Positions 15,898 through 62,124 of a stretch of DNA of 64,000 bases are shown here, piece after piece. The notes below the pieces were generated by a model. That model made no database searches. It was not told the origin of the DNA and saw only the letters and a list, made by a program, of their open reading frames with translations. The position numbers were made by a program, and so were the translations under genes. This DNA comes from Oidiodendron maius Zn (taxonomy: Eukaryota > Ascomycota > Leotiomycetes > Myxotrichaceae). The DNA is taken from positions 2,154,721 through 2,218,720 of the forward strand of contig KN832874.1 in the NCBI GenBank assembly GCA_000827325.1. Direction: 5' to 3'. Position 1 is the first letter of the stretch. Each line of letters starts with the position of its first letter.

Positions 15898-16095
15898 GGT
15901 TCAGAATATACAAAGTATTTCACTTGGGAATAATCTAGTGTAATTATGTAGGGAAATTTCAAAGTGATCTGCTCGTCTCCGATAATCAATCTATGCAGTA
16001 CATAATGATAAGCATTGAACTCAGATTCCAATTCCGTAACTTGGCGGCAAGTAAATGAATGCAGAAACGAGTTAACTCTCTGACGAATTCCCCAT

Positions 16096-32147: not shown

Positions 32148-32152
32148 ATAAA

Positions 32153-32498
32153 TATTACAAACACAAAGCAAGAGCCTAAGGCTTGGTAGGCAGCAGCCTA
32201 TACAGAGAACCCTTATAAGTGGCTCAGGAAGAGTCACGTGACATGCACGGGATTATAGGGATTATAGGGATTATAGTATAATCCAAATAATCCAGCTAAT
32301 CCAGGATAAACAAAGGTTCTATATAAATAATATATATTCCTTAGTAGATAAAAGCTTTATACTTAACTTAAATAAAGTATCTTATTACTACTTTAGTAAC
32401 TTATTAAGTCTATATATTACTTCTTGACTTAATAGTATCCCTGCCTTATCTAATCTACTTAATGACTTACCTAACACTAGATATAAGCTATCGTTACA
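32153..32498 (+). repeat. 5' LTR of the Gypsy-type element
   Basis: 346 bp, same length as the 3' LTR. It contains a short internal tandem GGGATTATA repeat, ends CGTTACA, and differs from the 3' LTR almost only by transitions. Confidence 0.85.
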
Positions 32499-35400
32499 CT
32501 TTAAGCACTCTAATCTTAGGTATCAATATACTATCATTATCAAGAAGTCAATATATCTTCTATTAAAGGAGAAAGTTCCACTAGCAAGCACTAAGCAATT
32601 AAACTATTTATAGGATCACTAAACAAGGGCATTAAGATAGAAATACCTCAGGCCTACTTTAGGGAGAAGTCTAAGCTTAAAGGCTTCCTTATTCAACTAA
32701 ACTTATATCTAACCTTCTATATCTAATATTTCGCCTCTTTAACCAAAAGGGTATTATATACTATTACTCTCCTTAAGGGAGAAGCATTAAACTAGATTAA
32801 AGGATTTATATAGGACTACCTTACTAATACCAGCCTATAAGGGTAAGTAATAGCTGAAATAAGGATAGAGATATACTATATCTTTATAACCTTTAAAGGA
32901 TTTTTAGAGAGACTTAACTATACTTTTAGAGATTTCAATAAAGTTAAACAAGTAATTAGAAAGATCTAGTCCCTAAAACAAAAAGGGTCTATAGCTATAT
33001 ATATAGTAGAGTTTAATAGATATTCTATCAAAACAGGATAGAATAATATAGTACTCAAGGATAAATATTATAAAGGGCTGAAAGAAGTTATAAAGGATAA
33101 ACTATCTAGAGCAGACTTCCCTAATTTGTTTAGAGAGTTAACCAAGAATACTATATATATCAATAATTAATTCTATAAAAGGGTCTAGGAGAAAAGAGGG
33201 TTCTATAACCTAACCTCTAAAAAGCAGTATAATTATAGAAACCACTATAGCCCTTAACTAATAGAACTTAATACTATATATAGAAAGGAACTATTACCCC
33301 AGGAATAATAGAACTATATAGAGAAGAAATTATACTTCTAATATAGGAAATCTAGTTATATAGTATACAACTATAAGTCTGGAGGAAACAAACAAAAAGG
33401 ACTATATAGGGGTAAGGTTAATGCTATAAACTATAGTAGCTATAATAGACTAATAGAATACAATACCTCCTTTATAGGAACAATATTTAGCCCTTATAAG
33501 AAGTTAAGCTTTATAGGAACTTTTAGCACTTAGGTCTATATACTAGTATTTTAATTATCTTCTTTATCCTTAGGATAGGAAGACTAGGCTACTTAGATAG
33601 AGGAGTTAATAGAAGTAGACCCAGATAGCAAAGACAACTATAAGTATATTTTATAAAGCCTAGCAGTAGTTAATTTTATAGAAATAAAGGGTAATAATAT
33701 AAACAGTAATTCTTTAGATACTAAAGACTTAGAGGGCTTGTAAGGGTAGGTAACCCTAGATCTAGAGCTAGAGGAAGAGCAAATAGAATCTGAAGAGACA
33801 TTCTCCTAAAGGATACTAAATATAACAAGATAGGAAGAAAGGGATACCTATATACTAGCAGGATTAGTATCTATATAGAAATACCTTAAAGAGTCTAAGG
33901 ATAATTTCTATAATATAATAAACCAAATCAAGAAACAATATAGAGATTATAAAGGAAACCTAGTACTATTAATTAATAAAGCAGAAGATATTATAGAATC
34001 TATAAGGCACTACTATACTAATATAATATATCTAGAACTTATAATCAAGAAACAAATAGAGAAGATAGATAAAGCAGTAAAGCTAGACATTAAAAGAAGC
34101 CAGTAATACTAAGATAAATTAGCTATAAATATCAATCTCCTACTCTATTTAAGACAAGAATTCAATAGATCAATTAAGAAGAAGAAACTTATAGAATAAT
34201 AGCTAGAGGAATATAGAAAAGCCAAGAATATAGCAAGGACTAATTACCCTTAATATAGAGAACTTACTTAAAGCTTCTACTATACTAACAAGTATATAAT
34301 ATATAAATCTAGTAAGAAAGAGACAGGATACTAGCTAAAAAAGAATAGGCTAGTCTACTAGACAAAAATACCCTAAACCTTAGTGACTTATATTAATAAA
34401 GCTAGAATAAAGTCAAAAAACTAGTTAGTATTAATATAAGAAAGCCTATATTAAGGCACTAGCAAGACTATAGAAGACTATATAAAGAACTAAATACAGT
34501 AGGAAAAGGATACTAGATTTTCCTGAATATCCTTATAAAAGGATAAATACTTAGAGTATTAATAGACTTAGGAGCAATAGGCAACTTTATTAATATATAA
34601 ACAGTTATATAAGAAAGGTATTAGACTTTAGAAAAGAAAGTATTATACCAACTACTCCTTATTAATAAGGGAGAAATCGGATCTAATAAAGGAATAGTAA
34701 CCTATAAGACCAAGAAATTATTAATAACTATATTAAGGGGATATACTAAAGATATTCAATTTAATATTATTACTATAGATACTTATAAGGTAATACTTAG
34801 TATACTTTAGTTATAATTTTATAACCCCTAAATCAACTAGGTAAGTAAATATATTACTATAAACCAATACTAGTATAGAAGCAATAGTATAATACCTAAA
34901 GAAAGGATAGAACTTCCACCCTATAAGCAGTTATATACAACTACTAAAGAGGAAGAGGACCTAGCCTAGACCTTTATACTGAAGCAAATACCAGTAGTAT
35001 ATAAGGAATATAAGCTACTATTCCAAGAAGCACCTACAAACAAGGCATTTCTAAAGTATTAGCTATAGGATTATAAGATACCTATCAAGTCTAGAAAGAT
35101 ACCTCCTTTTAGACTATTATACCAGATATCTGAAAAGGAGTTAGGGGTTCTTAAGAAATTTATTAATAAGAACCTAGCAAAAGGATTTATACAACTATCT
35201 ATATTATTAGTAGTAAGCCTAGTCCTATTTATACCCAAAAAGAATAGTAACCTATAGCTATATATAGACTATAAATAGCTGAACAATATTACTATCAAGG
35301 ATAGATATATACTACCACTAATCAATAAATTATATAATAGACTCTAAGAAGCTAAATACTTTATAAGTCTTGATATATAGAGAGTATATTATATAATAAA

Positions 35401-38099
35401 AATAAAGGAGGGTAAGGAATAGAAAACAGTATTCTATACCTACTATAGCCTCTATAAGACTCTAGTTATATAAAAAGGACTAACTAACGCCCCTATAACC
35501 TATTAGTAAATAATTAATAACTAGCTATATAAATATCTTGATATCTTTATAGTTACTTACTTAGATAATATCCTTATATTCTCTAAAACACTAACCAAGT
35601 ATATCAAACATATTAAGAAAGTACTAGATAAGATTAAGTAGACAAGACTACTAATTAAGCCAGGAAAATACAAGTTTTATAAAAAGGAACTTAAGTTCCT
35701 AGAATATATTATTAAGGAAAATAGAATCCAGATAGATAGAGAAAAAGTAAAGGCTATCTTTAAGTAGCTAGTCCTATAAACTATTAAGGAAGTATAATCC
35801 TTTTTAGGATTTATTAACTTCTATTAATGATTTATCTAGAATTACTTAAAGATAATAGTACCCTTAATAGAACTAATAAAAAAGGACTAGAAATTTATAT
35901 AGAATAAGATAGCCTAAAAAGCTCTTAATATACTTAAATACAAATTTATATAAGCACTAATACTTACTACCTTTAATCTAAAACAGAAAATTATTCTAGA
36001 AATAGATATATCTAACTTTACTATTAAAGCTTATCTAGAATAAGTCAATAAGTAAGGGAAGTTAAGACTAGTTATATACTACTTATATAAACTATTACTA
36101 GCTAAATTAAACTATAATATATATAACAAAGAACTATTAGCAATAGTTGTTATATATAAACAATAAAGAGTTTACCTTAAAGGATCTATATATTAAGTAT
36201 AGATCTAGATAGATTATAAGAACCTTATTTCCTTCACTATAACTAAGATCCTAAACCAAAGACAAGTCTAATAGTCTAAAGCATTATTAGCCTATAACTT
36301 TATTATAGTATATAAGAAAGGATCAGAGAACACTAGAGCTAATACCCTAAACCAATAATAAGACTATATCAGGAAACCTATAGAAAGGCCCCAAGTAATA
36401 TTATAAGCTAAAAACAAGGGTATAGAATACAACTATAAACTATTAGCTATAATCTCAGTTATAGAGGATATATAACTAGAGAGGATAATCAAGGGTATAT
36501 ACTTAGTAGACAAGAGTATATAAAGAGTTCTAAAAGAACTAACTATAGACTTCCTAGTTAACTACTAGAGTATATTACAATTTAAGAGCCTTATCTATAT
36601 CCTAACCAGGATAAGAAAGGATTTTATATAGAGGCAATATATACTCTCTATATATAGATACTAAAAAATTACAAGAACCCTTAAAAGACTAGTAAGGGAC
36701 TACTATTTTCTAGATATAAGGAAAGAGGTAAAGAAAGTAGTAGAGGAATATATCTTATATAACAAAAGCAAGATAAACCAATACACCCCCTATAGACTAC
36801 TACAACTACTACTAACACTAGATAGAGTATAGAAATCCATTATCTTTGATTTTATTATCAAACTCCTACTATTAAAGGAACTAATAACTAAGGTTACCTA
36901 TAACTCAATATAAGTAGTAATAAATAGATTAACCAAATATAGGTATTTCATACCCTATAAGGAAAGTAGCGATACCCCAGAATTAGTATATATATTCCTA
37001 AAGATTATTCTTAGTTAATATAGACTACTAGAAGAAATAATCTTAGATAGAGACAAGCTATTTATCTTAAAATTCTAGTAATCTCTTATAGTAAGACTAG
37101 GAGCAAACTACAAACTATTAACAGTATTCTACTTTTAAACAGATAATCAAACAGAATAACTAAACCAAACCTTAGAGCAGTATCTAAAGAACTATATTAA
37201 CTATAAATAAAACAATTAGATAGAATAGCTGCTACTAGTATAGTTTGCTTATAATAGTATAAAAAGCAAAGTAACAGAGACTTCACCCTTCTTTACTAAC
37301 TTTAGCTATAAACTAGAGGCTTATAGATAGCTAAAAAAAGATAAGGAAAAAGCAGAACTATCTAGAGTGTTTATAAATAGGCTATAACAACTAAAGGAAC
37401 AGCTTATAAAAGATATTATATTTAGCTAGTAGTAAACTATAGCAAATACTAACAAAAAGTATAGTATAGAACCTCTACTAAAAGAGGGGGATAAAGTATA
37501 TCTACTATAAAGGAATATCAAAACCAAACAACTAAGCAGTAAACTAGACTTTAAGAAACTAGAACTATTTAAAATTCTAGAAAAAGTTAGATCTATTAAC
37601 TATAAACTATAGCTACTCGAGAACTCTAGACTCTACTCTATATTCTATATATCTTTACTGGAACTAGTAAAGGGAGATATACTAGTAGTAATATAAGCTA
37701 AACTCTAACCAGAAAACAATCCAGGAGAATATAAGATCAAGAAAATCCTAGATACCAGGATAACTATAAAAGGTTAGTAAGAGTACTTAATCAAATAGAA
37801 AGGATATAGTCAAACAGACAATTTATAGGAACTAGAAGAAAATCTTAACTATCCAGGGCTTTTAAGGAAGTTTTACTAGTAATACTAATTGAATCCTAGA
37901 AAGAAGGTAATATAGGAAGATCAGTATCAAAAGCAACCCTAGAGAAGTCAAGAGAGTCACTAGAAAGGTTACCTAATATATTAGCTAAAGCAGTAGGTAT
38001 AAGAGCTTAGGAAGCAGCCTTATATATCTCTGCCTCTTCTACTATATCTAGTTTATCTAGGGTTTTTAAACTACAATAAAGTATAGTAGCTATATAAGC

Positions 38100-45589: not shown

Positions 45590-46954
45590 ATGGGGCGCGA
45601 TTTGACTTGGCGAGAAGTCTTTCCTGGCAAATATCTCCAACCCTTAGGTCATGTCGATCGCAATGTCTTTGGTGCGCTGCCCATACGCCAGGGCGAGCGG
45701 CAGCAATGGATTGTCTATAGTGGTACCAGCTTCGAGACAAACCTCGCTGATAATACCCTGCTCACTTCCTTGAAAACCGCCTGGAAACACACCAGATATG
45801 CTTTTCCCACGCTGGCGTGTCTCGCTGACGACAAGAACAAGACCTATGAGGTGCCCAAGAATGAAGAGGAGCTTGATAAGTGGGTTAATGAGTCGTTTGT
45901 TGTGCACATGGACAGCTCCTCTAAGGAACAGGTACCCAAGTTACGAGCAGAACACTTGCTCGTCCTGGTGCACTACTTTCCGCACCGGCGAGAGCTGCTG
46001 CTCCAAGCGGACCATCGGCTGGTCGACACGCGCGGCCTGTGTATGTTTTGGGACCGATTCTTCACTTTTGTAGCTCAGCCACCGAGTGCTACCATAGAGT
46101 TCGGCAGTGAAGTGAGGAATTTACCCCCAGCCTTGGACGATATCCTGAAGTTCCCTGCTTCACCAGGGGCAGAGGACATGCAACTCGCACAAGCTGCCGT
46201 GGCAGAGATGATGCTTCCGGACCAGATTGATATGCCAGTCGCCAACATGGACGACCCCCCGACCGACAGTAACTACTGCGCCATTAAGTTGTCGCCTGCA
46301 CTTACGAAGGCGGTGGTGGCCGCCTGTCGCCAACATAACGTGACGGTCACGGTCGCCTTCTACGCGGCTGTCATCTTGGCGACGCGACAGAGCCAAATCG
46401 AAGCCACGGGCAAGAGTGGCAGCGTCTTCTCCTCATTTCACACCTATGACGTGCGGCGGTATTTCCCTAAAGATTTCGATGCCCGCAGGTACACCATCTG
46501 CGACTATTCGCCACCATTCCTTATGACGAACAAGTCGACGACTTTCGATGGGCTCGTCAAGGAGCTCAAAGCGAGCTATGCTAAGCTGCTGCCTGATCCT
46601 CCCACTGCCGACAGCCTGATTTCGCTCGAATGCGCGTTCTCGCACATCGTACAGAAAATATTTACGACTCTTGGCGGTCTGCCCAAGTCTAGCACCCCGC
46701 TTGTGGTAAGCAGCGGTGTGTTTGAGAACTATATGTCGCGCTCACATGGCGGGGGAGATCGTAAGATCACAGTGTTAGATGTGTTTGTCAATGTGTACAT
46801 CCTAAGCGCACAAATCCAGCCATACTTGTGGACGTATAACAATCGGCTTACAATTCACTTGGGGTACAATGAAGCTTATTATACGCAGGTAGAGGCACGA
46901 AAGTATGGGGAATTGATACAGAGCATACTACTTAGGGAGCTAGGAGTCGAATAG
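45590..46954 (+). CDS. condensation-like O-acyltransferase (Tri3/CAT-like)
   Basis: A single exon of 454 residues. The N-terminal part (WREVFPGKYLQPLGHVDRNVF) and the central QADHRLVDTRGLCMFWDRF, carrying an HxxxDxxG variant of the condensation/acyltransferase catalytic motif, place it with fungal alcohol O-acyltransferases resembling trichothecene 15-O-acetyltransferase. The second half has VTVAFYAAVILATR and SSFHTYDVRRYF, usual for the second lobe, and PLVVSSGVFENYM near the end. It would esterify a hydroxyl with an acyl-CoA in the cytosol. The general base His is present. It lies upstream of the oxidation cluster in the same direction as the SDR, so it could acylate a product, but 1.3 kb separates them. 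Confidence 0.75.
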   Translation: MGRDLTWREVFPGKYLQPLGHVDRNVFGALPIRQGERQQWIVYSGTSFETNLADNTLLTSLKTAWKHTRYAFPTLACLADDKNKTYEVPKNEEELDKWVNESFVVHMDSSSKEQVPKLRAEHLLVLVHYFPHRRELLLQADHRLVDTRGLCMFWDRFFTFVAQPPSATIEFGSEVRNLPPALDDILKFPASPGAEDMQLAQAAVAEMMLPDQIDMPVANMDDPPTDSNYCAIKLSPALTKAVVAACRQHNVTVTVAFYAAVILATRQSQIEATGKSGSVFSSFHTYDVRRYFPKDFDARRYTICDYSPPFLMTNKSTTFDGLVKELKASYAKLLPDPPTADSLISLECAFSHIVQKIFTTLGGLPKSSTPLVVSSGVFENYMSRSHGGGDRKITVLDVFVNVYILSAQIQPYLWTYNNRLTIHLGYNEAYYTQVEARKYGELIQSILLRELGVE

Positions 46955-48306
46955 GTGCAGTGCTATGAACTCTTTAGGTACTGCTGAGCACAAACTCAAG
47001 TTAAAGATACTTTTTGTTTTTCCACATAACTTGCGAGCATGAAAATTAATGACTTGTAGTAAGTAGTAAGAGATCAAAATAGTATTGAAGATGAAGTTCT
47101 TCAAGCAGTATGATGGATGGCTTGGGCAACGAATCTTTTCTCCGAAACGCGTCTCTAGAGTAACCCCTAGTTTATAGTGTCAACGCGATTCCGAAAGCAG
47201 ACATCATTGCGCTTTACGTGGTGTGTACCTTATCTTCCCCATCTTCATAATCATATTTCACAGCCACCCCGCAATTCTAAATCAAGTTTAGCCGCGCACG
47301 GTTCGCCCTCCGCGTTCCCATCTTTTGGTTGCGAGTTGTAAGCGCAGAGCTTTCCTCTATGAGAACTATTGACCCGATGAGCTAGGGTTTGGTCGATCTG
47401 TTGCTTCCTTTCTCAATGAACAAATCTCATGCTCCGAGTGCGCAGCTCACTGCAGATGACACGAAAGATGTGTATCTGCCTAGACACTTCGATTATGATA
47501 TCTAATACCCACCTTCAAACCTAAAATTTCTGCTCAGTCTGTACTTGCTCAGGATAGGCGTACGTCATACACACACTAATTTTGGTGAGACTGGAGCTCG
47601 TAATGGTAACACAAGTTGCTCTAATACTGGAGATCCGCCTATTGTTCCCTCCTGTGTCGCTCGAAATCAAACCCTGGAACACCCGGTACCGCTGCGAGAT
47701 GCTCGACCCACATCTCAATATTTTCATAGCTTTGTATGATAACCGGTTCGTAATTTAGTTGGTCTTTCGTTAGTTAGTTTGACCTATAACAGTCAGTTAA
47801 ATTGACTATCATACACTGCTGGAACACTGACCACCGGCTCTCATGCACGGAGAATTGACTCTTGACAGCTTTATCTAACATTAGTATGCTTCCAATATTG
47901 GATTTGAAAGACCATCTGATGTAGATAGTCAGCCTGGTCAATAATGGGGCACAATGACCAATAGATTAAATATCTACCTGTAAGGGAAGAGGTGTGAGTG
48001 TCAATAGCGGCAGGGCAGGCTTAGGATCTTGCCGACATGGTCCCTTTAATGAATATCCTGTCATAGTCTTCGGCCCAATAGAAGTCCGGCACACAATAAT
48101 TCGCGCATTGCAAGCCAGTTACAGTAATGCAGGATGTACTGCCCCCCTTATAAACTAGCCGAAGAGACTTCCAGCTATTGGTCAGTGGCGATCCATAACG
48201 GTATTGGAATTGGCACGAGACTAACTATAACTTCTTGGAATGATGCTTTCTTCTTTCTGCAAGTCCACAGAAAGAAAGTCTGGGCTCAACATCTCCCCGA
48301 CTGATT
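46955..48306. other. intergenic, no gene seen
   Basis: About 1.35 kb of unremarkable composition between two plus-strand genes. The distal part should hold the SDR promoter. An in-frame ATG for the SDR does not occur upstream; the earlier ATG at 48241 reads into a stop. Confidence 0.5.
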
Positions 48307-49523
48307 ATGACTTGGACGCCAGAAAGTCTACGTAACCTAACAGGGCGGGTATATCTTGTCACAGGAGGAAATTCTGGCAAGTAAGTTCACCCAATAAGTC
48401 AGTATGAGAGGCTACACTGCTAATATCCGACAAGCGGCTACCAAACCGTCCTTGGCCTGGCAGCAAGGAATGCAAAGGTCTACATTAGAGCACGGTCGAA
48501 TGAAAAGGGTACTGCTGCAGTATCAGCTGTCAGAGCCGAGAACGAGAGTGCGAAGGTTGACTTTGTGAAAATGGATATGATGGATCTGAAGAGCATGGAA
48601 AAGGCCGTAGGGGAAATCAAAAGGTATGTGCCAACTTCCTGCACCTGGACATGTGCCTGCTTCTGAGTTGGGAGCTGATCTGAGTCCGTATGCAACAAAG
48701 AGAAATATTTACATGGTTTGATAAATAACGCTGGCATAATGGCAACACCGTATGAGGAGTCTGCTCATAAGTACGAAGCCCAATTCCAGGTACGTTTCCC
48801 TCTACGGAGCAAGACACGACGATCCAGTAAGTTGATATCTTGCGTTTTAATTGAAGACAAACTACATCTCTCCTTGGCTCCTTACATATTACCTACTTCC
48901 TCTTCTCATCGAAACTGCCCGTCAGAGTCCAATCAGCCACGCTCGCATTGTGAATGTGAGCTCGGATGGCCATTTGATCTTCGGCCCCCCCTCAGGCATC
49001 AATTTCAACGACATCAATCAAACCAAGAGCGGGAAGGGAGGCCCATGGTCGCGTTATGGGCTATCTAAGCTAGCAAATATTCTGCATGCGAAAGAGCTGA
49101 ATCAGAGATATGGAGGAACAGAGGCAGGAAGCATCTGGACAGCCAATTTGCATCCTGGAACAGTAGACACGTAATACCCGTTCTATCCGCTCTACACCCC
49201 GAAATACTAACAGGCTATCCCAGGAAGCTTCTATACAGGCCACAGCTTCCGCATTCTTCCAAACCATTTTCCCCATCTTGAGGTTCCTTGGCGTATACTC
49301 GAAAGTGGACACTGCCGCCTACACGACTCTCTACTACACGACTCTCTATACCGTGGCCAGCGACGAGTTCACACAGAAGCTTAGTAGTGAGTACCTGCAG
49401 CCAGTGGCCAAAGTGGGAAGGCTGAGCAAGGTAGGAAATGATGCAAAGCTAGCCAAGGATCTTTGGGAATGGACGACAGCAGAGATAATCAACCTGAGCC
49501 TGATTCCGTCCACCAAATTGTAG
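48307..49523 (+). CDS. short-chain dehydrogenase/reductase
   Basis: Start MTWTPESLRNLTGRVYLVTGGNSG, then after a splice NGYQTVLGLAARNAKVYIRARS (TGGNSGNG as TGxxxGxG). LHGLINNAGIM is the NNAG motif, IVNVSSDGH holds the catalytic Ser, YGLSK is YxxxK, and NLHPGTVDT follows. This resembles retinol-dehydrogenase/WW-oxidoreductase-like SDRs of about 330 residues. Five exons; the second intron is not ideal, because the frame needs a GTGCCA donor (near 48629) or a small anomaly. An in-tandem duplication near 49318-49348 makes the peptide YTTLYYTTLY. It converges on the CYP505 gene and could oxidise the secondary alcohol formed by it. Confidence 0.75.
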
Positions 49524-49905
49524 CGGGCGTGCAACGAGAAGTTGTTATCGAATTGAACCGAATCCGCCAATGTCAATCCAATTCATTACCATCCATTATG
49601 AATCTTCATGAGTTTGTGTATTCGTCGATTTAGGTGGTCCCTATATTTACTCTACAAATTTTCGAGTCATTCGAATTGGGGCGTTAAGACACAGAGGATA
49701 GGCAAAGGCTCATTCAGGATGTTGAATGGGACAACTATGAGGAGTGGCGATAAAGGAGAATTTTGTGTTATATACAAGAGTCAACTGGGTTATCACGATC
49801 GTGCAAGCTGCTGCACACAAAGATGGTTCTCAACTGTAGTTCCTTTGAAAATTAAGACACCACGAACGCATTCCACCCACTATTCCCCTATTATAATATG
49901 GCCGG

Positions 49906-52900
49906 CTAGGTCTGCGAAAAGATTTCGGCGACGTATCGCGCAGACATTGTTTCCTCGGAGAGCTTATTCAGACTTTCTGCGCCACGTTTCCCGTCCACTT
50001 CAGTAGGACCCACGATCTCATTGAAAATTTCCCTAACCCCATCTGCCATGTTGATCCCACCACAGACATAGATTTTCGCTCCTAGATTCCACAACTGGAT
50101 TACTTCTGCTCTATCCGCCCACATTCGGTCCTGGACGTACATTCGAGATTCCGATATAGACACTGTTTCTTCGCCACTGAATGCACGGCGCACACTTACA
50201 ACACCTTCAGCCTCGAACTCATCTAGCTCTTGGCGGTACAAGTCATCTTGCTTTGACCCACGGCAACCAAAGAATAAGATGGCGGGCTGCAATTGTACGC
50301 CATTACGCCGTTGTAAAGCGCGATCTTGGATGAATCCCCGGAATGGAGCAATACCGGATCCTGCTGCAACCATAATTATAGGATGAGCACTGGCATCATC
50401 TGGTAGATGGAATTGCTTTTTACAGGGTCGAATTGTAAAGTGCACCGCGTCTCCAGGGACCAGATCTGCCAGGAAGTTGGATGCGACTCCGAGGAAGGAT
50501 CCTTGGCCGGATAAAGCAGGTTGGGCCAAGACGGAGATTGTAAGGGACGCATGTGATGGCTTCCAGAGAGCTGACGATGAGATTGAGTATGTCCGCACTC
50601 TGAGCGGTGGAAGCATATCAATAAATGCACCAACACACAACTTTATTGCCTTGTATCTCTCAAGAAGATCTAAGACTGACACTCGCATGTCACGAATCTG
50701 CGACTCAAACGCAGCACCACCAAGCTCAGCGAGCTCATATCTTCCTTCACCTTCCGGGGTTACAGACAAAAGCGTTGCAATGTTCTATCGAAATCTTAGC
50801 CTGGATGTGTTATTATGCAGATGTGAGTACTCACTCGACGTGTTGCTGGCTGGCTTAATTCGACATACGACGCAAACACGTCAAAGGCCGAAAGAGTTTC
50901 TTGACCTAGTGTACCCATATGGCCGATTCTCGCCACTGACAAAACGCTGTCTCCAGCTAGATGAAAGCGAGCCAAGGCACGACGTACGTTCTGCCGCGGA
51001 TTTATAGGCAAGACCGAGAGGTGATCTCCAGGCGCGTACTTCATGTTAGCTGGAAGTTGTATTTCAACATGGTATTTCAGTGCTGAGCCAGACTCAGACA
51101 ATTTATGCGTCTCCGAGACGATACACTCGACGGCATTGTGATGGAGCGCCCTCGCCCGGGGATTCGTGATTGTGATATCCTGCTTAACCTCTGTCCTTGC
51201 AACATTATCAACCGTCTCATTTCCGGCGGCGCTTGAGCTCGACCAAAGATGTTCATCTTCCCAATTCTCGAGGTCCGAGAACATGTCGCTCACTGCTGAG
51301 TTTGCCTTACCCATCTGCGCAACACGATGAGCTCCAGCTCGCGCAAGAAGCTCATCGATCATAATGGGAACCTTATAAAATGTCTTTGCCCAATCATGAT
51401 GGCCTAGTATACATTGTCAGTATAATGTATCTTGGTTAATCATATGATAGATTCACTTACCGCAGGCAAAGACTGCAAAAGGCATGCCACCAAGAGCATC
51501 TTCATCCAATGTTTTCAACCAATTGCAGAATCTAACAGCATTATCGGCAGGCAAGCCATCATAGGAGCATGTGATAATGACTACAAGTTCGTCCTTCGCT
51601 CTTGGCAAAATTCCTATCACCGAGTCTAGTGTAGCAACAGTGGTTACCGAATATCCATAGCTTGGCGCATCTCTTGCCAGACGGTGAGCAAGCGCTTCAC
51701 AGGTACCACTGTTGCTTCCGTAGAGGATTGTGACAGGAGTGCTGTTTCCCACCTGGCCGTCATTTGCTGGTGCGATAGTTCCATTTTTTATCTGGATATT
51801 AGTGGAGATCGGATTTGAAAATCCGCATAATTCCCTCGGTGTCCGGCCGCTCCTGAGTTTTGCACGAACGTAGAAGTTCCCAGGTTTGATAGTCAAGGTT
51901 TCCACAATTTCGAGTTTATAGTCGGGATTATCAAGAGTGAGATCAAAATTCTGAAGTATAGACGCGATGACCTTGAGAAGTATTAATCATCGAAGCTCGT
52001 TGTAGGCCGAGATAGCAGGGAAGGCAGACTTACCAGTTGTGATTCTTGCCAAGCAAAAGCTCGTCCAATGCACCCTCGTGTGCCATTTCCAAACGGTTTC
52101 CAGGCGTTTTTTGGAAGTTTATTAAAATTTTCGTCCATCATTCTTTCAGGTTTCCACTCATCTGCGTCCTCTCCATAGACTTTCTTGTCGCGATGGATAT
52201 TGTGAAACATACACAGTACAGGCTCACCTTTCTTGACGGCATACTTCCCTCCTAAGGTGGTGTCTTCTCGTGCACCCAAGGTAATAGCAGGGCCAGTTGG
52301 ATTAAGACGTAAGGCTTCTCGGAGAACAGCATCGATGTATGGCAGCTTTGACAAGTGATCGGCAGTGATGTTGCCAGCTCCAATCACGCGATCTACTTCC
52401 TCTCGTGCATTCTTCAATGACTCTGGATTTGTGAGGAGGTAGTAAAACACAAACGAAAGTGCTCCCGATGTAGTCTCGTGCCCTGCGACCAGGAATGTAA
52501 TCAGATTATTGATGATCGATTCGTCACTCATACCTTCCCCGGTCTTAGGGTCTCGCCCATGAAGAAGTGCATTCAAGAGATCATCTCTGTCGCTTGGATT
52601 TCCTCTTCGCAGGTTTAATATCATCATACTCATTTCCCTCATGCTTGCAATATCGCCCAGGAAGCTACGCCTAGCCTTCCACCGGAATGCATTCAAATAC
52701 TCCGGTATCATAGACGACTTGTCAGCTTCTCGCAAAAACCCAACCATGGATTTAACAAAGGGATGCACGTCACTGTTGCGGTAGAAGCTATTGAACCTAT
52801 ATCCCATGGTACAGAATGCTATGGTATCCAAAGTGAGGCGGGTCAGATCGCCGGCGATATCTATACGGTGGTCAGGTCCATATCGTGCCCTAATTTTCCT

Positions 52901-53459
52901 TTGATTAGGCATAAAGGATAAAATGACAGATTGAACATACCATTTGAGACTAAGTTCTTGGCAAACATCTTTCATTCCGCCCAATGTCTCTCTAATCTTT
53001 ATTGGTCCAAATATAGGCATGATAATTCGATGGGCAACACCCCAATTGTGTTCACCATCGTGAGCTGTAAACAAACCATCGTTGACCCCAGCTCGTAAGT
53101 TGCCCAGACCACTAACGACAACTTTGCAGAAACGAGATTCGTCACAGACTTCGTCAAACAGAGCGTGGGTTTGGAGAAAAACGAGTTTATTTCCACCAAG
53201 AACCAACTGAAAAATATCGCCTATCACAAATTTAGTTGGTAATGACCATTGGAAACGAATTCTCAGTGATACCCATACCATATGACCGTCCCATTTCTAA
53301 TACAGATGCGAGGCCATGTTCTGTATCAATATCGAAGAGGTTTCCAAGCAGTGGCCACACTATTTGAATATTAACATTCTCGGTTTTCTTGGTTGAGATT
53401 CAGGAACACATACCCGAAGGACCAGGAATTGGGATAAGGGCATGATTCTTTTTGGTCAT
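49906..53459 (-). CDS. self-sufficient P450:NADPH-P450 reductase fusion (CYP505 family)
   Basis: Seven exons give about 1,060 residues. N-terminal P450 half: ALIPIPGPSG, VWPLLGNLFDID, I-helix LVAGHETTSG, ExxR EALR, PERM, heme loop FGNGTRGCIGRAFAWQE. Then, across an intron, the reductase half: FMN domain TILYGSNSGTCEALAHRLA and CSYDGLPADNA, FAD-binding RTYSISSS, NADPH site AAGSGIAPFRGF and FFGCRGSKQDDLY, ending RYVAEIFS. No membrane anchor is present, as for BM3/P450foxy-type enzymes, which hydroxylate fatty acids and alkyl chains at subterminal (omega-1 to omega-3) positions without a partner. Start MTKKNHALIPIPGPSG at 53459, first ATG before the PGP hinge. All splice junctions keep the frame, so it looks functional. 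Confidence 0.9.
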
Positions 53460-54106
53460 TCTCTTCGTGACTTGTAGGGTTGGCTCAAGGGAGAAAGGAG
53501 TATTGCACAAACTATCGTATGAGTATGGGGGATTTGATGCGTATGGCAAACTGGAGGTTGACAACAAGTGTTAAGATTTTAATTTGGTATCATAGAGGCC
53601 AGGGCCTTGCTTGAATGCCTCCAGACATACACAAGGAGGGCTGTAAAAGATATGGATGGGTAGTTGTATTATATTGCTAGTTCTGTTCGGTTGGCCTTTG
53701 CGTCTCTAACCTACTCTTCCCTGTTGGTCTTCAAAAGACAAGAAGCAGAGACTATACCAACTTTGCGGTCTTCGTTATAGCAAGTGAGTTCGCAACAGTT
53801 ACTTCTGTGACAAATGTGGAGTTCATCGCGGCATGGTTACCAGTCTCGGTATAGCGACTTTCTTCCTGTCAGCCCGCCTTCTCCCTGTCCCATTGGCATT
53901 CTCTATTGAGAAAAGGTAGCGCGCTGCTCCCTCAGCTGTTGTGGGCCTCTCTTTGTGAAGTTACGGGCAGAAACAGCCGCAGTTATACCAGGAGCCGTCG
54001 CCCCGACTCTGCATGTTCGGTCGGAACAGGCGGGCGGGATACTGGAACTAAGCAATTCTACGACGGGACTGGTCTCGATTGGCATCAGATACAAAATATA
54101 ATTTAT
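53460..54106. other. CYP505 promoter region
   Basis: About 650 bp upstream of CYP505 and downstream of the esterase, both minus strand. I looked for CCTCGG/CCGAGG and found none. No gene is seen. Confidence 0.5.
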
Positions 54107-55172
54107 CTAGTTACGACGGCCTAAAATTTTATTGATACTTTGAATGCCCTCATCCCACTCTCCAGATGCCATAAGATATATCTCACCCGCTACTCCATGG
54201 CCGACTCCTTCCAATTCAGAATACCTTAAAGCTATGCGCGGATTGAGTGTTTTGAGCTTGCTTACAAACTTTCGACTTCCATCAATGGGAACTTCTGTGT
54301 CTGCAGTTCCATGTTGTAACCAAAGGTATGAAAGATCGCTGGCGAGTTGGGCATTATCTTCGAGTCTCTCAATCGGGAAAAAACATCGATCCACTCCGAA
54401 GAAATCAAGGAATCTCCCACGTTGAATCATTGCGTACGCTAACGTGTCGGTGCCACTATTAATGCCTCTGGTTGACGGATGAGGGCCATTTGGCAAAGCC
54501 TGAAGATGGTCATCAATTATTTCGTTGGCATGTTGAGGTTGATTGTTAATATTTTTGGCGTAGTCTGTACAGTAAAAAGGATCTCGCATGTCAATCATGG
54601 GATAGGTTGCTATTACTGCGCTGATTTCTAAAGGATGGGAGAGTGCAACTTGAATTGCAAGATAACCTCCTATAATTGAAATACGTTAACCTAGACTGAC
54701 AGAGGAATTCTGATGCTCGAAGTGACTACACACCTGCGCTCTCGCCCGAGACCATAATTCTCCCTATGTCCGCCCCAGCCTTTCCATTTCTCATGCTGCG
54801 TACAGCCTTGTCAAGCTCCGTAGAGACCCAATTCCATGCGTCCTCAACATCTTCCAGGATTTCCTTTCCATTGCCCTCTGGTAGAAGCCTGTAATCTGGG
54901 GCCACAATGATAATGTTCTCATCGATCGCATGCTGCAAGATGCGGGGTGGTGTTATCTCAACCATGTTTCTGGCCCCATTGACTAGAAAGCCCCCATGGA
55001 AACGAATATTGACCGGATGTTCGCCATCACACAGCGTCTTAGGCACCATCACATCTAGCATGATTGCATTTCCTTGAACATACTTGAAAGTGATAGTCTC
55101 GACATCAAAAGCATCGAAAAGTGATACGAACTCATATACATCTTTATGAGTTTGTCCTTGAGAAGTTGCCAT
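54107..55172 (-). CDS. alpha/beta-hydrolase esterase (HSL-like)
   Basis: Two exons joined at GESAG/GYLAIQV give about 333 residues. The oxyanion motif HGG is in NIRFHGGFLVNG, the nucleophile elbow is GESAG, the probable acid lies in LQHGTADTEVPIDGS, and the catalytic His is in EGVGHG. There is no signal peptide, so it is intracellular; the open frame upstream of MATSQGQTHK is not needed. The family hydrolyses short esters. It lies directly downstream of a Baeyer-Villiger monooxygenase in the same direction (about 430 bp), a pairing in which the esterase cleaves the ester made by the BVMO. Confidence 0.85.
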
Positions 55173-55604
55173 GGCGAACAGAAAACGATGCAGAGGCAAT
55201 CTTGATTCCTCAGGAATTATAAAGTCTAAATAGCGCTGGATAAATAGAAATGGGTACTCCAGTATAAGCAGATCCTTGAAATTAAGTCTAGTCGCGCAAC
55301 AGTAGCCGGATTGGGACGGCGGGGCCTTGTCGCTCGCCGTCCTGGCGTGAGTGGGGGGCAAGGATGTAAGCAGATGCAATTTGAGATAGTAACCGGGCAC
55401 GTGTGGCTTAGAGGTTGCATTAGGAGATTCCTAGCATTCTCGATAGTTTACTCAAGGTTCATATTGAGTTACTACGTTTGAGTTCGACAGGTCATCGAGA
55501 GTAAATTGACATCGGATGCATGAAAAGTACGCATGAGAAAAGGTAACATTTCGAAACAGGATCTACCAAATTCTATGCTTCACAGTGCCTAACAGATGGT
55601 TGAT
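55173..55604. other. esterase promoter region
   Basis: About 430 bp between BVMO stop and esterase start. No gene is seen and no CCTCGG element is present. Confidence 0.5.
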
Positions 55605-57894
55605 TCACTTCTGAACCACTTTGGGAGCGTCGAGGGACCAGGGCGTATCTGAGTCTCGAATGAAAGGTGCCAGATCAACGTCCTTCCCATTAATAGCGTC
55701 GACCTCTAAGTCGGTGAAGCCGTTTCCAAGAAAGGCCCACATGTTGCTATTCATGTATCGTATGTCATAATGCTCAAATCTGGGGGTTTTGAGTGCTCTT
55801 AAATGATGTAGAAGGCTCCCCGGCCAAATGTACACTCGACCATTTGGTTTATTATCCTTGTACCATGACCGACAATCTTCAGCCCATACAGATTTCTTTG
55901 AGTGCCACGTATCAAGATGCTCATTGATCTGTGTTGTTGGCAACTGCTTGACTTCAATTGCCTTGATGCCATCCTCTTGCATCTTTTTGCAGCATTGTAG
56001 GGCGTATTCAATTTGAACCTCGTGCTTCAAATCTGGTTAGCGACGGCGAAACCCCTTCCTTAACCTATTTGTAAGACTTACAGATGGCAAGACGCAACCT
56101 TGGCCCCAGTTTCCCGTTGGGCCATTTACCACGAAGTAGTTTGGGAACTTTGGGCTTGCGATGCTCAAGTATATGTTAGGGATCTGCGTTCCGAGTTGTT
56201 AGTCCGTATTATAGGCATACAGCTTGAACAGGGTTTTACTTCCGACCACTCATCTTGAATAATTGCCCCATTAACGCCTGTAATCTTACTTCGTGGTTCT
56301 GTCAGTATTGAAAATATACTGTGAGTTAAAGGCTCGGTATGGACAAACTTACAAGTGCGGCACATATTGAATTGAGAACCCAGTGGCACAAGCAATTATA
56401 TCGAATTCAAAAGTCTTTCCTGACGTGGTCACCAGACCTTTTTCGTTCAGCTGAGCGACGCCTTCGTGTACAATGTAAACATCTGCGAGGCAATTAGTGT
56501 TTGAATCGATTATGAGATTTAATCGCAACTTCCGGTCTCGAGTCAGCGACTCTAAATAACCCTCTCCTGGCTATGACGATGTATTAGCAAAACTTTTAGA
56601 CAGATATGGGAGTATGAGAAGGTGCGAAAACTTACAGTAATTCGACGGCACCCCGGTGACCAATCCGGAATCAAATTTTCCTTCAGTTCATCATGTCCGG
56701 GCCCAATTTTGGCTACCATGCTCTCACGCATTGCTTTTCTCGCCCATAGGTTGAGTGGAGAGCCTCGAAGAAAGATTGGAAAGCTCTTGGTCATTCTGGC
56801 TTCTAGATCTTTTCTATAAGATAGGAAAAACTCTTTGTTAGTTCGGAATCTATGTTTTTCTTCTTCAGAGTAGATGTGTCGTCCCACAATCCTTGTGTCT
56901 CCTCCTCCAGTGCTTTCTTTTGATATATCCGATCCCATTTGCGGCGATATCCAGGTTTTATTACGGGCAAAGACATGCACGCTTCTAGAGCCTTGTTGAT
57001 TGATAAGTAAATTACTATGGAAGGTAGTTTGGAACCAAAATCGAATACACATACCTTGAGCCAGATGGGGAAGCATCTGTATGGAGCTTGAGCCTGTCCC
57101 AATGATAGCAACTCTTTTTCCTTCCCATGTGATTGTCGGATCCCACGAGGCACTGTGTGCTAAAACACCAGTAAAGGAGTTTAAACCAGCGATATCCGGC
57201 CCTGGGTGGGAGGCGGTGGGTCAGTTTCTAATTATACTAATACATCAAGGGGTCATTTACATTTCCATTTGTTTACCACTCCAGAACCGTTTAGCAAAAC
57301 ATCACAAGTAACAACAGATTTATTTCCGTCCCTCATCAATCCTACATGCCCTTTGTCTTATTAGCATCGTATTTCAACAGGTGTGGCGAGCTTACATTTT
57401 CCTTGCTCTTCATTCCATAACGCTTCCGTTACCTGTGTGTTCAGCTGAATATAGGGCTGCAACTTGTACTTCTCGTAGAATCTAATAAAATATGCCTGAA
57501 TTTCGCTAGAGAAGGAATAAAATCCAGACCATTCGGGGTTCGGCTCGAACGAATACGTATAGATATGTGCAGGTACATCACAGGCACATCCTGATGTACA
57601 TCATTAGCAAATCTCCAAACAAGCTGGGGATAGCCGACCAGGGTATCTATTCTCCCACCAGGTGCCACCAATTGTTGGGTTTCTATATGAAGTCATTAGA
57701 TTTGCTTGTCAAAATCCGTCTAAAAGCCCTTACTTCTCATAACAGATAAGCTCATAATTATCGAGCATTCGCTCGGCCTTATATGCAGCGAGTAATCCAG
57801 AGGCACCTGCTCCAACATGGATTATTTTCAATCTCCTGGGCTCAGACTGCGCCTGGTCCAGAATATCGTAGCCTTCGTCATTTAAAATCGCCAT
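55605..57894 (-). CDS. Baeyer-Villiger monooxygenase (type I, FAD)
   Basis: Ten exons give about 600 residues. The FAD motif is KIIHVGAGASG at the N-terminus, then [32 protein letters not shown] (the conserved BVMO core spanning an intron). The fingerprint FxGxxxHxxxW is FTGVLAHSASW, the NADPH motif is IIGTGSSS, and ATGF lies in IACATGFS. Odd acceptors were needed at two introns (PHF/KITGVNG and LPS/HEVQIEY), but each gives an open frame, so I judge the gene intact. It converts a ketone to an ester or lactone with O2 and NADPH. It is divergent from the alcohol dehydrogenase with 611 bp between them. Confidence 0.9.
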
Positions 57895-58127
57895 TGTAAC
57901 GCAAGAGAAATATTTAAAACTTCTGATAAGACGGTGTGGCTCTACGGAATGTTCAAGGACAATAGTGCAACTTATATGGAAGTCCTTGGCCTATATGCTA
58001 GATTAATGTGGCCCTTCTCCGAAGTGGTTATCACTAGTGCATTCAGATGGAGTTAGAGTATTCGCCACGTTCCGAGAATGTAGCGTCTAATTTTTCACCC
58101 CTAAATTGGTATTGTTCGCGCGATAGA

Positions 58128-58133
58128 CCGAGG
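58128..58133 (-). promoter_or_regulatory. candidate FarA/FarB-type site (CCTCGG on the minus strand)
   Basis: Plus strand reads CCGAGG. Its inner edge is about 235 bp upstream of the BVMO ATG. CCTCGG is the known core of Aspergillus FarA/FarB and Fusarium CTF1 sites in fatty-acid and lipase genes. A six-base match alone is weak. Confidence 0.4.
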
Positions 58134-58269
58134 CACCTAGGCGTCTGGGAATTTTATTACTAAATCTGGATCATACTAGCATCACAATAAGGAATTAGAT
58201 AAGGCAAGTGTACCGCAGTTACATGTGAAACGAATCACATAAAACGTGTTGTAAATTGCAAGCAATTTG

Positions 58270-58275
58270 CCTCGG
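58270..58275 (+). promoter_or_regulatory. candidate FarA/FarB-type site (CCTCGG)
   Basis: CCTCGG, 236 bp upstream of the alcohol dehydrogenase ATG, the mirror of the site at 58128, adjacent to the inverted repeat. Confidence 0.4.
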
Positions 58276-58318
58276 CGCGAGCAGAGTTTCAGGTTTTCAC
58301 TCGCAAGGGAGCTCTGCC

Positions 58319-58326
58319 TATAAAAG
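58319..58326 (+). promoter_or_regulatory. TATA box of the alcohol dehydrogenase gene
   Basis: TATAAAAG about 180 bp before the ATG, with pyrimidine-rich sequence downstream. Confidence 0.45.
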
Positions 58327-58505
58327 AGTCAGGCTCTAAGCGTCGTGTTCTGAAGGGACTGGAAATATCGGCTACAAAGCAACGCTGTTCGCCGTACCTT
58401 TTATCTTCTGCTTAATTGAGTAGTTCAGTGTTCCACTTCTCAGCCATAGACAAGTCTGACAACTACTTCATTTTCAAGCACACGTTACAGGATTAGAATT
58501 TCATC

Positions 58506-59849
58506 ATGGCAGGCACTATGCAGGCCGTTCGTTTTCATGGCAAGAATGATATTCGGCTGGAAGAAATTCCGATACCTGTGTGCGGCAGGGGGCAGGTTAA
58601 GGTACGTTGTACTTAAAAGTCGATTGCCTTTGACAACCATTATTAATGTTGCCATAAAACTTTAGGTCAGACCTGCTTTCGTTGGTATATGCGGCACTGG
58701 TTGGTTTTCTCACTTTTGACTCGCTATTGAAATACTGAAGGGAATCCTCAGATCTTCATGAGTATCTTGAAGGGGCGTACCTTATTCCTACCGCTCCACA
58801 TCCTCACACCGGTGAGCAAGCACCGGTTGTTATTGGACACGAGTTTGGGGGAACTGTTTCCGAGGTTGGAGAAGGCATCAGTGGCCTGCAAGTCGGTCAA
58901 CGGGTTGTCATTCAACCCATTCTCTTTGATGAGACTTGTGCGGCGTGCCAGAAAGGTCTAATCAACTGTTGTCGAAAGGGTGGATTCATCGGACTAAGCG
59001 GTAAGAGTGCACGCCTCATTTACTGGAGCCCTCTAACTCATGATTACGATGTCAGGTTGGGGAGGTGGGCTATCTGAGTATATTGTGGTTCCCAGTTATT
59101 CCGTTTTCAAGATACCGGATTCCATATCTCTCGAGGTTGCCGGTCAGCATTTCTCCCCTCTAACTTTGCATAATCTAGTAGCTGAGAAAAAAAAGCCCTT
59201 ATTGAGCCACTCGCCGTTGCATGGCATGCCGTCACCCTCAGCCGGTTCCAACCCAATGATAGTGCTCTTATTCTGGGCGGAGGGCCAATTGGCTTAGCCG
59301 TGCTGCAAGTGCTTAAAGCACGCGGCGCCAGGAAGGTCATTCTTTCAGAAATCGCAACCAAGAGAAAGCAATATGCAGCAGACTTTGGTGCGGACCTGAT
59401 TCTTGATCCAACCAAGGACGACGTTGGTGCTCGCTGTCTGGAATTGTTCGGTGGTGAAGGCGTTCAAGTCGTTTTCGACGCCGTAGGACGCCAAAGCAGT
59501 ATCGACACGGCTCTCGTAGCTTGTCGACCGAGGGGAGTTATATGCAATATTGCCATCTGGTCGGAAGAAGCTGTCATCCAGCCGAACTACTTTTGTTTGA
59601 ACGAGCGCACTTATGTGGGTTCAGCAACATACTCCGCCGGTGACTTTCAGCAGGTCATCGACACGATTGCGTTAGGTATGCCCAGAATAATTGATAAGGA
59701 TCACTAGGCACTAATAAAGTTGTAAAGGACTATTAAAACCCGATCCCATGATTACTCTGGTTATTGGATTGGAAGAAGTTGAGGAAAGGGGGTTCAAGAC
59801 TCTGATCAATGATAAAGATTCTCATGTCAAGATCATTGTTAAAGTCTAA
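58506..59849 (+). CDS. zinc-dependent alcohol dehydrogenase (butanediol dehydrogenase-like)
   Basis: Six exons; start MAGTMQAVRFHGKNDIRLEEIP. VGICGTDLHEYLEG (catalytic zinc Cys), GHEFGGTVSEVGEGISGLQVGQRV (zinc His and GHE signature), CAACQKGLINCC (structural-zinc Cys cluster), IEPLAVAWHAV and the NAD motif LILGGGPIGLAVLQ follow in order. The last intron is needed to avoid the stop at 59705 and to reach LKPDPMITLVIGLEEVEERGFKTLIN. The group oxidises secondary alcohols and vicinal diols to ketones. About 360 residues. Divergent from the BVMO, it would supply the ketone. Confidence 0.88.
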
Positions 59850-61350
59850 TGGAACTTGGGTGGAAGGTAGTTTGGAAAAGAGATGAATGAATACCACATA
59901 ACCTCGTCATCCCGCCTATAGTTACAAGGCTCTGAGCCCTATACTGCTTTGTAGTAGGCTGCAGTGTTGACCTAACGAGAATAGGAGGTTTTGTATGTTT
60001 ATTTGATAGTTGATACAGCAAGAGAACTCGGCTTCCATCACGTCCCTTATTATAAATGTACGGATAATTGATCTCATCCCCATCCCCATCGCCATGTTGC
60101 CTATCTATAGGGGCGAACGCGATGTAGGAGGCCGAAATAATTAGCTGTGGCGCTAGAGATCGCACATTGTATTGTGCTCCCAGGTTCTCTGCGGCTTTCA
60201 GTAATCACTACGGAGTTTCGGAGTAGTACCGGAGTTTGGCACATCGTGGGGGGTTTTGAACCCGAGATGGCGCAGTCCCAACTCAAAATGGACAGGAAAC
60301 TAACACATAGACCATCAGACTTCGTGCGCGGGCCCAGTTTCGCGCAAAGCTGCCCATATCCGGTCAGCCAAACTACCATTCTGACAGCGGGCCTCATCCA
60401 CCAAGCTGGGTAAAAAGCGGGCCGGGAGCTGCAAGCTACTGAATTGTGTCGAACTCATGCACCAGTGGTTGTCAGAATTCGCTGCACACGGGCCAAGACT
60501 GTCAGGTGTCTATCGTACAGAGTGGAAGAGTCGACCATGCAATGGTTGTTCAGCCGGAAAATAAGGGTAGCTGGAACCTCGCTGGAGGTTCACTAGTGAT
60601 ACACAAGAGCAAAACTATATTCAGCAACCGATGATTAGACTAATTGCTGCCCCTCTTAAAATGAAGGCCCTGTTGATATATATATACATGATTAATTGGT
60701 GGTCCCAAGCATGAGTCGTGCCACATAGCAAGGTGCGACTCTCCAGCGACCCTCTGGATTTGCACCTGACAAAAACCCCAAAACGCGAAATCGCGATTCC
60801 CATCCATTGTACTTAATCACTCAATATAGCCATCTTTCGAATTATCGAATATCTAATGGGCAATTCCGGATTCATTTTATCACATGAGTATATGCTGTAC
60901 ATTTTTGATACCATCTTGATGCTATCGGTGGTTGGTCTCTTTCTATAGCACCACCCAGGAAATATGTTCGCGCCGGCCAGAGAGCAATCAGAACGAGAAT
61001 CAAGTACCTTTTTTGACTTGTTAGAAAATTGATAGACATGTCAGATTTGTGTTAACAAGAGTTGTAGCTAGCAGAATATAAGAACGATTCTCACGACCCG
61101 GACTGGCAGAGGTCTTGATTAGTGGTAACTGAAAGGCACAGTCGATACTGGGACCGTGTCAGGCGAAAGCGTTATTGTCCATCTACAGACTCTATATTGT
61201 TTTCAGACTGCGGTGAGCCATATTCTGGTGCTCGGCATCCCAAATTCCCCACGATCCTCCCGTGAGATTCGCTCTGGCCCTCTGTATTCCTCTCCTATCG
61301 AAGCCAATGCCTTGAGGCGCAGCAGGTAATATAGATTTCCAGACATACAC
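59850..61350. other. intergenic with dispersed repeat copy
   Basis: About 1.5 kb without a gene that I can support. Copy 2 of the 56-bp repeat lies at 60499-60554. Confidence 0.5.
60499..60554 (+). repeat. 56-bp dispersed repeat, copy 2
   Basis: The matching partner lies at 8401-8456, in the same orientation. This copy has more G and C at the variable positions. Confidence 0.6.
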
Positions 61351-62124
61351 TCAAGGAGCCGCCTTCTTCATCTTTAATCCCACTCTCTTCCCGACGAATT
61401 CACTCTGCAATCCTTTCTCGAAGTCGGTAGCAATGAAGTCCAAGGGATCCTCCAAAGAAGTGGCGTAACCACCCGCTAGACCGAAGACGTTCAAATAGGG
61501 CCCGATCAGCGGTACCCACTTGAGAGTGTCCCGCCACTCGGGGGGGGAGTCCGCGCTGGCGATCACATTGGCCGCCGAGCAGTCGTCCGGTGCGGGAATT
61601 CGAATCTCGTTGTGCTTGGGGCTCATTTGATTGGCACAAAACAGCGACCAGGCGATGTTCCCCTCGTCTTGCTTCTGGATGAGGGCTAGATTTTCCCTGT
61701 GCTCGGGAAACATGGGCATGTAGTCACCGATGAGATGAGTCGGGATGGCGCTGTCCAGCATGGGGAAACCAGACATCAGCCAGGCGCGGATTGCGGGCCC
61801 GCGGCGCTCCTCGCGGGCTTCCACAATGGCTGCGACGACGGTGGCGAACATTTTGTTATATTCGCCGGTCTTGGAGCGGCCGAACATCTGCGCCACGCCA
61901 GCGGCGTGAAAGACGGCATCGCAGTTGTGGGCGAGTATGGCATCCTTCAACGCTGACTTGTCCGTGACCGATCCGACGACCACGTCGGCCAAGACAGCTC
62001 GCTTCCCTGGCGCGAGTTTGCTAGGCGAGCGAACATAGACTACGACGGTGTGGCCGTGCTTGATCAGGGCAGGCAGTGCACGGCTGCCGACATTGCCAGT
62101 GGCACCAAGCAAGAGCACCTTCAT
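61351..62124 (-). CDS. NAD(P)-binding Rossmann-fold protein (NmrA/epimerase-like)
   Basis: A single exon encodes 257 residues. MKVLLLGATGNVGSRALPALIKHGHTVVVYVRSPSKL carries the GATGNVG dinucleotide loop of atypical SDRs (NmrA/NAD-dependent epimerase group). DAVFHAAGVA, AIRAWLMSGFP and AWSLFCANQMSPKH are in the usual positions, but a canonical YxxxK is not seen, which suggests a regulator or an isoflavone-reductase-like enzyme. GC content is higher than in its neighbours. It lies next to a transcription-factor gene in the same direction, with no clear link to the oxidation cluster. Confidence 0.75.
   Translation of the reverse strand: MKVLLLGATGNVGSRALPALIKHGHTVVVYVRSPSKLAPGKRAVLADVVVGSVTDKSALKDAILAHNCDAVFHAAGVAQMFGRSKTGEYNKMFATVVAAIVEAREERRGPAIRAWLMSGFPMLDSAIPTHLIGDYMPMFPEHRENLALIQKQDEGNIAWSLFCANQMSPKHNEIRIPAPDDCSAANVIASADSPPEWRDTLKWVPLIGPYLNVFGLAGGYATSLEDPLDFIATDFEKGLQSEFVGKRVGLKMKKAAP

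Follow-up and report, generated by a model that had tools for sequence, protein, structure and literature searches.

Introduction

Gene clusters that combine a Baeyer–Villiger monooxygenase (BVMO), an esterase and a dehydrogenase have been reported to be widely distributed in fungal genomes (PMC5943271). As far as the accessible part of that report goes, the demethoxyviridin cluster of Nodulisporium encodes VidF (a type I BVMO), VidP (an esterase) and VidH (a dehydrogenase), which together cleave the pregnane side chain by turning a ketone into an ester, releasing an alcohol and oxidising the alcohol so freed, the evidence being deletions, an in-vitro assay of VidF, and feeding. These genes are part of a steroid pathway that has 19 genes and includes six P450s, and CYP505 is never mentioned in that part of the report. 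VidH has 283 aa and is gluconate 5-dehydrogenase-like by the name used in the paper. BVMOs of Grosmannia clavigera have been implicated in hydrocarbon (limonene) detoxification, with no CYP505-led set described for them in the portion of the text available (PMC8120277), and in aspergilli BVMO and SDR genes are syntenic with the neighbourhood of a 3-hydroxyanthranilate catabolic cluster, which serves aromatic catabolism and for which the sections at hand likewise describe no CYP505 (PMC7842363).

There are bacterial counterparts as well. In the propane/acetone pathway of Gordonia TY-5 (prmABCD, acmAB), a subterminal hydroxylase is joined by secondary-alcohol oxidation, a BVMO and an esterase, with the BVMO and esterase genes clustered, but the hydroxylase is a diiron enzyme and the substrate is C3 (PMC3604635). 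Along the long-chain alkane route of Thalassolituus oleivorans, proteomics detected an ADH, a BVMO and an esterase raised together on a C28 alkane, although their tags (TOL_2772, TOL_0709, TOL_0906) suggest that the genes are not adjacent (PMC6304351). Reports of subterminal alkane degradation by filamentous fungi go back a long way, and Baeyer–Villiger oxidation of dodecane-2-one was shown in yeasts (PMC4192553), while for Aspergillus flavus the available text presents subterminal alkane degradation as a hypothesis only (PMC9468676).

The present study examines a five-gene block of Oidiodendron maius in which a BVMO gene and an esterase gene are accompanied by those for a CYP505-type P450-reductase fusion, a zinc alcohol dehydrogenase (ADH) and an SDR. 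CYP505 enzymes such as P450foxy have usually been studied as single enzymes, and the members characterised to date work mostly on fatty acyl chains.

Materials and Methods

The window is the whole 64,000-nt stretch analysed (C5:2154721-2218720), from a 45.9-Mb genome in 58 contigs; its contig, C5, is 2.3 Mb long. The short introns and a RIP-like island point to a filamentous fungus. Splice models were built by hand and later re-derived, and each was checked for a stop at its end and for the lack of stops inside. Core biosynthetic enzymes were sought exon by exon across the genome at E 0.001, the search comprising ketosynthase (KS), NRPS condensation and Terpene_syn_C_2 domains. Chance adjacency was estimated from tallies of five CYP505 loci and 34 FMO/BVMO-like loci in the genome.

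Results

Organization of the block

The block spans 48307-59849 in the order SDR(+), CYP505(-), esterase(-), BVMO(-), ADH(+) (Table 1). In the re-derived models the spliced frames of all five genes are intact, with a terminal stop and no internal stops, and their introns, of 43–67 nt, all start with GT and end with AG. The soft spot is the second SDR intron, where the frame is kept only with a less usual GTGCCA donor. Spliced frames, Pfam families and catalytic motifs back each of the assignments and bear out the initial annotation, which had described five adjacent, apparently intact genes. A perfect 15-bp tandem duplication, of a length that is a multiple of three, lies within the SDR coding sequence (49319-49348) and is the single tandem repeat pair found in 46000-62000. 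A search of 30000-64000 against Rfam gave zero matches.

Table 1. Genes of the block, an adjoining gene and the shared promoter, in window coordinates.
Feature	Coordinates	Strand	Length	Exons and remarks
Acyltransferase-like gene	45590..46954	+	454 aa	one open frame; HRLVD (HxxxD); 1.35 kb from SDR
SDR gene	48307..49523	+	331 aa	5 exons: 48307-48380, 48435-48627, 48685-48789, 48857-49170, 49214-49523
CYP505-type P450-reductase fusion	49906..53459	-	1073 aa	7 exons: 53414-53459, 53279-53359, 52941-53220, 52034-52889, 51461-51971, 50835-51403, 49906-50784
Alpha/beta-hydrolase-3 (HSL-like) esterase	54107..55172	-	333 aa	exons 54734-55172, 54107-54669
Type I BVMO	55605..57894	-	593 aa	10 exons
Divergent BVMO/ADH promoter	57895..58505	.	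611 bp	CCGAGG (58128), CCTCGG (58270)
Zinc MDR ADH	58506..59849	+	355 aa	6 exons: 58506-58601, 58666-58699, 58752-59000, 59056-59142, 59196-59675, 59728-59849; divergent from BVMO

The encoded enzymes

The P450 gene specifies a protein with p450, Flavodoxin_1, FAD_binding_1 and NAD_binding_1 domains, an AGHETT motif and an intact heme Cys loop (FGNGTRGCIG), that is, a P450 fused to an FMN/FAD reductase as in CYP505. Like P450foxy and the protein of PDB chain 7p6l_B, both of the CYP505 family, it is a self-sufficient fusion; it matches P450-reductase fusions end to end (nearest 9wuc, 2.7e-222), and 7p6l_B, which we take to be CYP505A30, is the nearest chain to its heme domain (5.4e-148, 497 bits). 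The rule for inclusion in the CYP505 family is an identity of more than 40% to named CYP505s. In the heme-domain alignment the positions of the BM3 carboxylate (fatty-acid) anchors R47 and Y51 read N and F, so that binding of free fatty acids is not indicated; since 7p6l_B also lacks both residues, their absence is neither proof nor exclusion of a fatty acid as substrate. A Fusarium CYP505 is named as a fatty-acid subterminal hydroxylase in a title within the reference list of PMC4117967.

The ADH has the Pfam families ADH_N and ADH_zinc_N, and carries the motifs GICGTD and GHE and a zinc-type cysteine cluster. Its nearest structure among 221 is 6ie0, (R,R)-butanediol dehydrogenase (1.9e-75), with residues 5–354 covered. 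Judged by its catalytic and structural zinc motifs and this full-length match, it is an (R,R)-butanediol dehydrogenase-like zinc MDR and, because (R,R)-butanediol dehydrogenase acts on a secondary alcohol, the match was counted for a secondary-alcohol step.

The BVMO falls in the FMO-like Pfam family (3.7e-18). Type I BVMOs are marked by two signatures, FxGxxxHxxxW[P/D], which is quoted in PMC12724338, and [A/G]GxWxxxx[F/Y]P[G/M]xxxD; both are present in the protein, the two stretches being FTGVLAHSASWD and GGTWWENRYPGCACD, and place it in type I. Of the dinucleotide-binding (Rossmann) motifs, one agrees with GxGxx[GA] (residue 28), and the second, read by eye as GTGSSS, lies outside the pattern used. 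Among 67 distinct sequences the nearest structures are cyclohexanone monooxygenase (9.1e-45), OTEMO (3uov, 3e-44) and steroid monooxygenase (4aos, 1.1e-43); OTEMO is an enzyme of the camphor pathway. More distant is 5j7x (2.5e-35), which we take to be a fungal BVMO. By its two signatures the protein is a type I BVMO, with a predicted conversion of ketone to ester or lactone at the expense of NADPH and O2.

The esterase belongs to Abhydrolase_3 (6.8e-16), with the motifs HGG, GESAG, DTEVP and GHG, and its structural relatives are distant carboxylesterases only (best 1.7e-9 among 28). The SDR is an adh_short protein (1.4e-21) with TGGNSGNG, NNAG and YGLSK motifs, and 3rd5 (4e-24) is its sole PDB match below the chosen limit of 1e-12. 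It ends in STKL (window 49512-49523), similar to a weak peroxisomal targeting signal; when the ends were compared, the C-termini of the other four proteins bore no resemblance to such a signal.

The shared promoter

CTF1alpha/beta and FarA/FarB, which regulate cutinase and fatty-acid genes, bind the motif CCTCGG (PMC5068947). There are 21 Far/CTF1-type sites in the window, and among the four promoter stretches of the block two sites lie in the one shared by BVMO and ADH and none in the other three. When every 611-bp stretch of the window was counted, this promoter included, 1.3% had at least two sites; among order-1 resamples of the promoter the figure was 0.5%. The sites had been noticed before they were counted, and the enrichment is therefore a hint only: a weak hint of putative fatty-acid control. 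A search for words common to the four stretches gave weak matches only.

Neighbouring genes

Contig C5 carries none of the 98 KS, 35 condensation or eight Terpene_syn_C_2 matches of the genome. No core synthase of these three classes therefore stands beside the block, which counts against a tailoring role for some nearby product made by such a synthase. The initial annotation had found no PKS, NRPS or cyclase in the window; this can be widened to the whole contig for the three classes, but a polyprenyl_synt Pfam match is present at 18405-18986, near FMO-like and P450 matches. Its concern that a core enzyme might lie outside the window is answered for the same classes, but an NRPS-like gene was found in the right flank (L037:6776-9999 and L038:3-2132), with AMP-binding, phosphopantetheine (PP-binding) and hexapeptide matches; the distance from the ADH to its nearer end is 10.9 kb. 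Between the two are, by eye, a zinc-cluster-type regulator ORF, one piece of which had no Pfam match, and a GH2-type ORF.

The polyprenyl synthase belongs to a terpenoid-looking set (6334-19652), in which Pfam recognized FMO-like and P450 genes; an SDR and another P450 were seen by eye only, the tested pieces of these two having no Pfam match. The first motif of the synthase is DDIAD and its second, by eye, an unusual NDCKN. About 29 kb separates this set from the block, including an AT-rich island (32000-38000; 26–29% GC, TA/AT of about 1.5, low (CA+TG)/(AC+GT)) that looks RIP-mutated. Pieces of a LigB-type dioxygenase and an aldehyde dehydrogenase lie at the window's left end (1170-1691 and 3764-4087), and further left (L039:5044-6608) there are acyl-CoA-dehydrogenase-like ORFs and a transporter-like ORF, seen by eye. 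Several window pieces were assigned no family by Pfam, four of ten pieces being left over in one scan and three of ten in another.

Immediately left of the SDR gene is an acyltransferase-like gene, whose PapA_C match (6.8e-6) is below the cut-off of that family and which weakly matches a 15-O-acetyltransferase (3fot, 4.7e-4). It is possibly a sixth member of the block and, as such, would suit tailoring better than catabolism.

Relatives elsewhere in the genome

Other CYP505 relatives are found on contigs C1 (two), C7 and C24, and for BVMO relatives the highest identity is 51% in a long exon and 65% in short exons. Expected numbers of CYP505–BVMO pairs are 0.03, 0.07 and 0.11 for limits of 4, 10 and 15 kb, respectively; those observed are the window block, at 2 kb, and a looser one on C1, its members about 12 kb apart. 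The adjacency in the block is thus a mild enrichment, not proof.

No second copy of the block was seen among 17 loci of the genome (14 paralog loci and three C5 flanks), and esterase or SDR matches at 1e-4 were absent both from these loci and from the window's first 47 kb, a result that applies to loci of mostly 4–10 kb, beyond which farther neighbours would be missed. A BVMO-like gene with a nearby ADH-family match occurs at two loci (L043, L047); a third (L046) combines a P450 match with two BVMO-like genes. These loci, at 21–42% identity to the window proteins, show that such BVMO neighbours are not rare in this genome.

Two candidates for further copies were rejected. One, near 6.40-6.42 Mb on C1, combines a divergent couple of ADH-like and BVMO-like genes with a CYP505 gene about 12 kb off, but within the 8 kb examined a transketolase-type ORF adjoins one of sorbitol-dehydrogenase type (both by eye) and the BVMO-like gene is only distantly related, at 24–32% identity; the arrangement was judged a coincidence. 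C8 carries a similar pair. The C24 relative (L040:4807-5848) is 42–76% identical to the window P450 by piece and has several stops, some maybe intronic; as a decayed copy of the block it was discarded, the surrounding 10 kb having no tblastn match (1e-4) to BVMO, esterase, SDR or ADH and no RIP signature.

Another CYP505 paralog (G000:C1:498533-501413) has a ketosynthase match about 8 kb away and a condensation match at 16 kb, and probably belongs to a separate biosynthetic cluster. Contig C25 (392 kb) has four separate BVMO-like loci, at about 168, 250, 274 and 322 kb.

Discussion

By family and motif, a hydroxylase, a secondary-alcohol dehydrogenase, a BVMO and an esterase, the set needed for subterminal oxidation, are all encoded side by side in the block, and the enzyme classes and reaction order first proposed for it fit this evidence. 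Reading the order of reactions, the common substrate and a breakdown purpose from gene content, the CYP505 would hydroxylate an in-chain (subterminal) carbon, the zinc ADH would turn the resulting secondary alcohol into a ketone, an ester would arise as the type I BVMO places an oxygen next to the carbonyl, and the esterase would hydrolyse this ester to acid and alcohol; the SDR may oxidise the freed alcohol or interconvert alcohol and ketone. That the five genes form one such route, which would oxidise an aliphatic or similar substrate within its chain and cleave it there, is the reading we favour, at about even odds. Fatty-acyl or alkane-type chains would be the most likely substrates, followed by terpenoid or steroid ketones. 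A more specific version is put forward as tentative and with low confidence: a dedicated fungal cluster with Far/CTF1-type control that splits fatty-acyl or alkane chains in-chain, the self-sufficient CYP505 opening the reaction series and the ADH, BVMO and esterase completing it.

The chemistry itself is established already. The initial annotation knew of no fungal cluster with all of these steps, a claim that has to be narrowed, since chain-cleaving BVMO–esterase–dehydrogenase clusters have been published (PMC5943271, as far as its accessible part goes), and it stands at most for a set that includes CYP505. A cluster of CYP505, BVMO and esterase was not found described in the open-licence literature, which is weak evidence of absence. 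Relative to the known trio, the window brings in a CYP505 and a zinc ADH, and where the trio has VidH the block has this zinc ADH and an SDR.

Among the other explanations, one is that the block serves the cleavage of a terpenoid or steroid side chain or ring, for example of a plant defence terpenoid or a progesterone-like compound, with the P450 hydroxylating earlier. The BVMO is about equally near to steroid monooxygenase, OTEMO and cyclohexanone monooxygenase; VidF, VidP and VidH represent the same three enzyme classes (PMC5943271), and monoterpene detoxification has been linked to two BVMOs of Grosmannia (PMC8120277), each to the extent of the text accessible. This is possible but doubtful, given that the block contains no P450 other than the CYP505, a family with the fatty acyl preference mentioned above.

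It is unlikely that the genes are instead a tailoring set of a biosynthetic cluster, made up with the acyltransferase-like gene and perhaps the polyprenyl-synthase set (6–20 kb) or the right-hand NRPS-like gene. The acyltransferase-like gene does adjoin the block, both candidate partners have supporting Pfam matches, and the available part of PMC8403587 counts BVMOs and acetyltransferases among the tailoring enzymes of cytochalasans, but C5 lacks KS, condensation and Terpene_syn_C_2 matches, the polyprenyl-synthase set is set apart by distance and a RIP-like island, and the zinc-cluster-type and GH2-type ORFs intervene before the NRPS-like gene. The catabolic role favoured in the initial annotation gains from the missing core domains, but it was read from gene content only and had not weighed the acyltransferase-like gene or the polyprenyl-synthase set. 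Finally, that these are chance neighbours in an oxidoreductase-rich genome, with no common pathway, is very improbable: the families are large (104 P450 exon matches among those listed, besides the many FMO/BVMO-like loci), other BVMO loci also lie near ADH-family or P450 matches, and the looser pair on C1 looks coincidental, but few CYP505–BVMO pairs are expected at such short range and the five functions make up a complete reaction series.

Returning to a dedicated cluster for in-chain cleavage, its significance would be both biological and practical. Engineers have built ADH–BVMO–esterase cascades in bacteria, and the block, if this reading is true, would be their natural counterpart. With a complete clustered set, the fungal subterminal alkane pathway could be tested by deleting genes, and a natural team of enzymes would be at hand for converting fats to hydroxy acids and esters.
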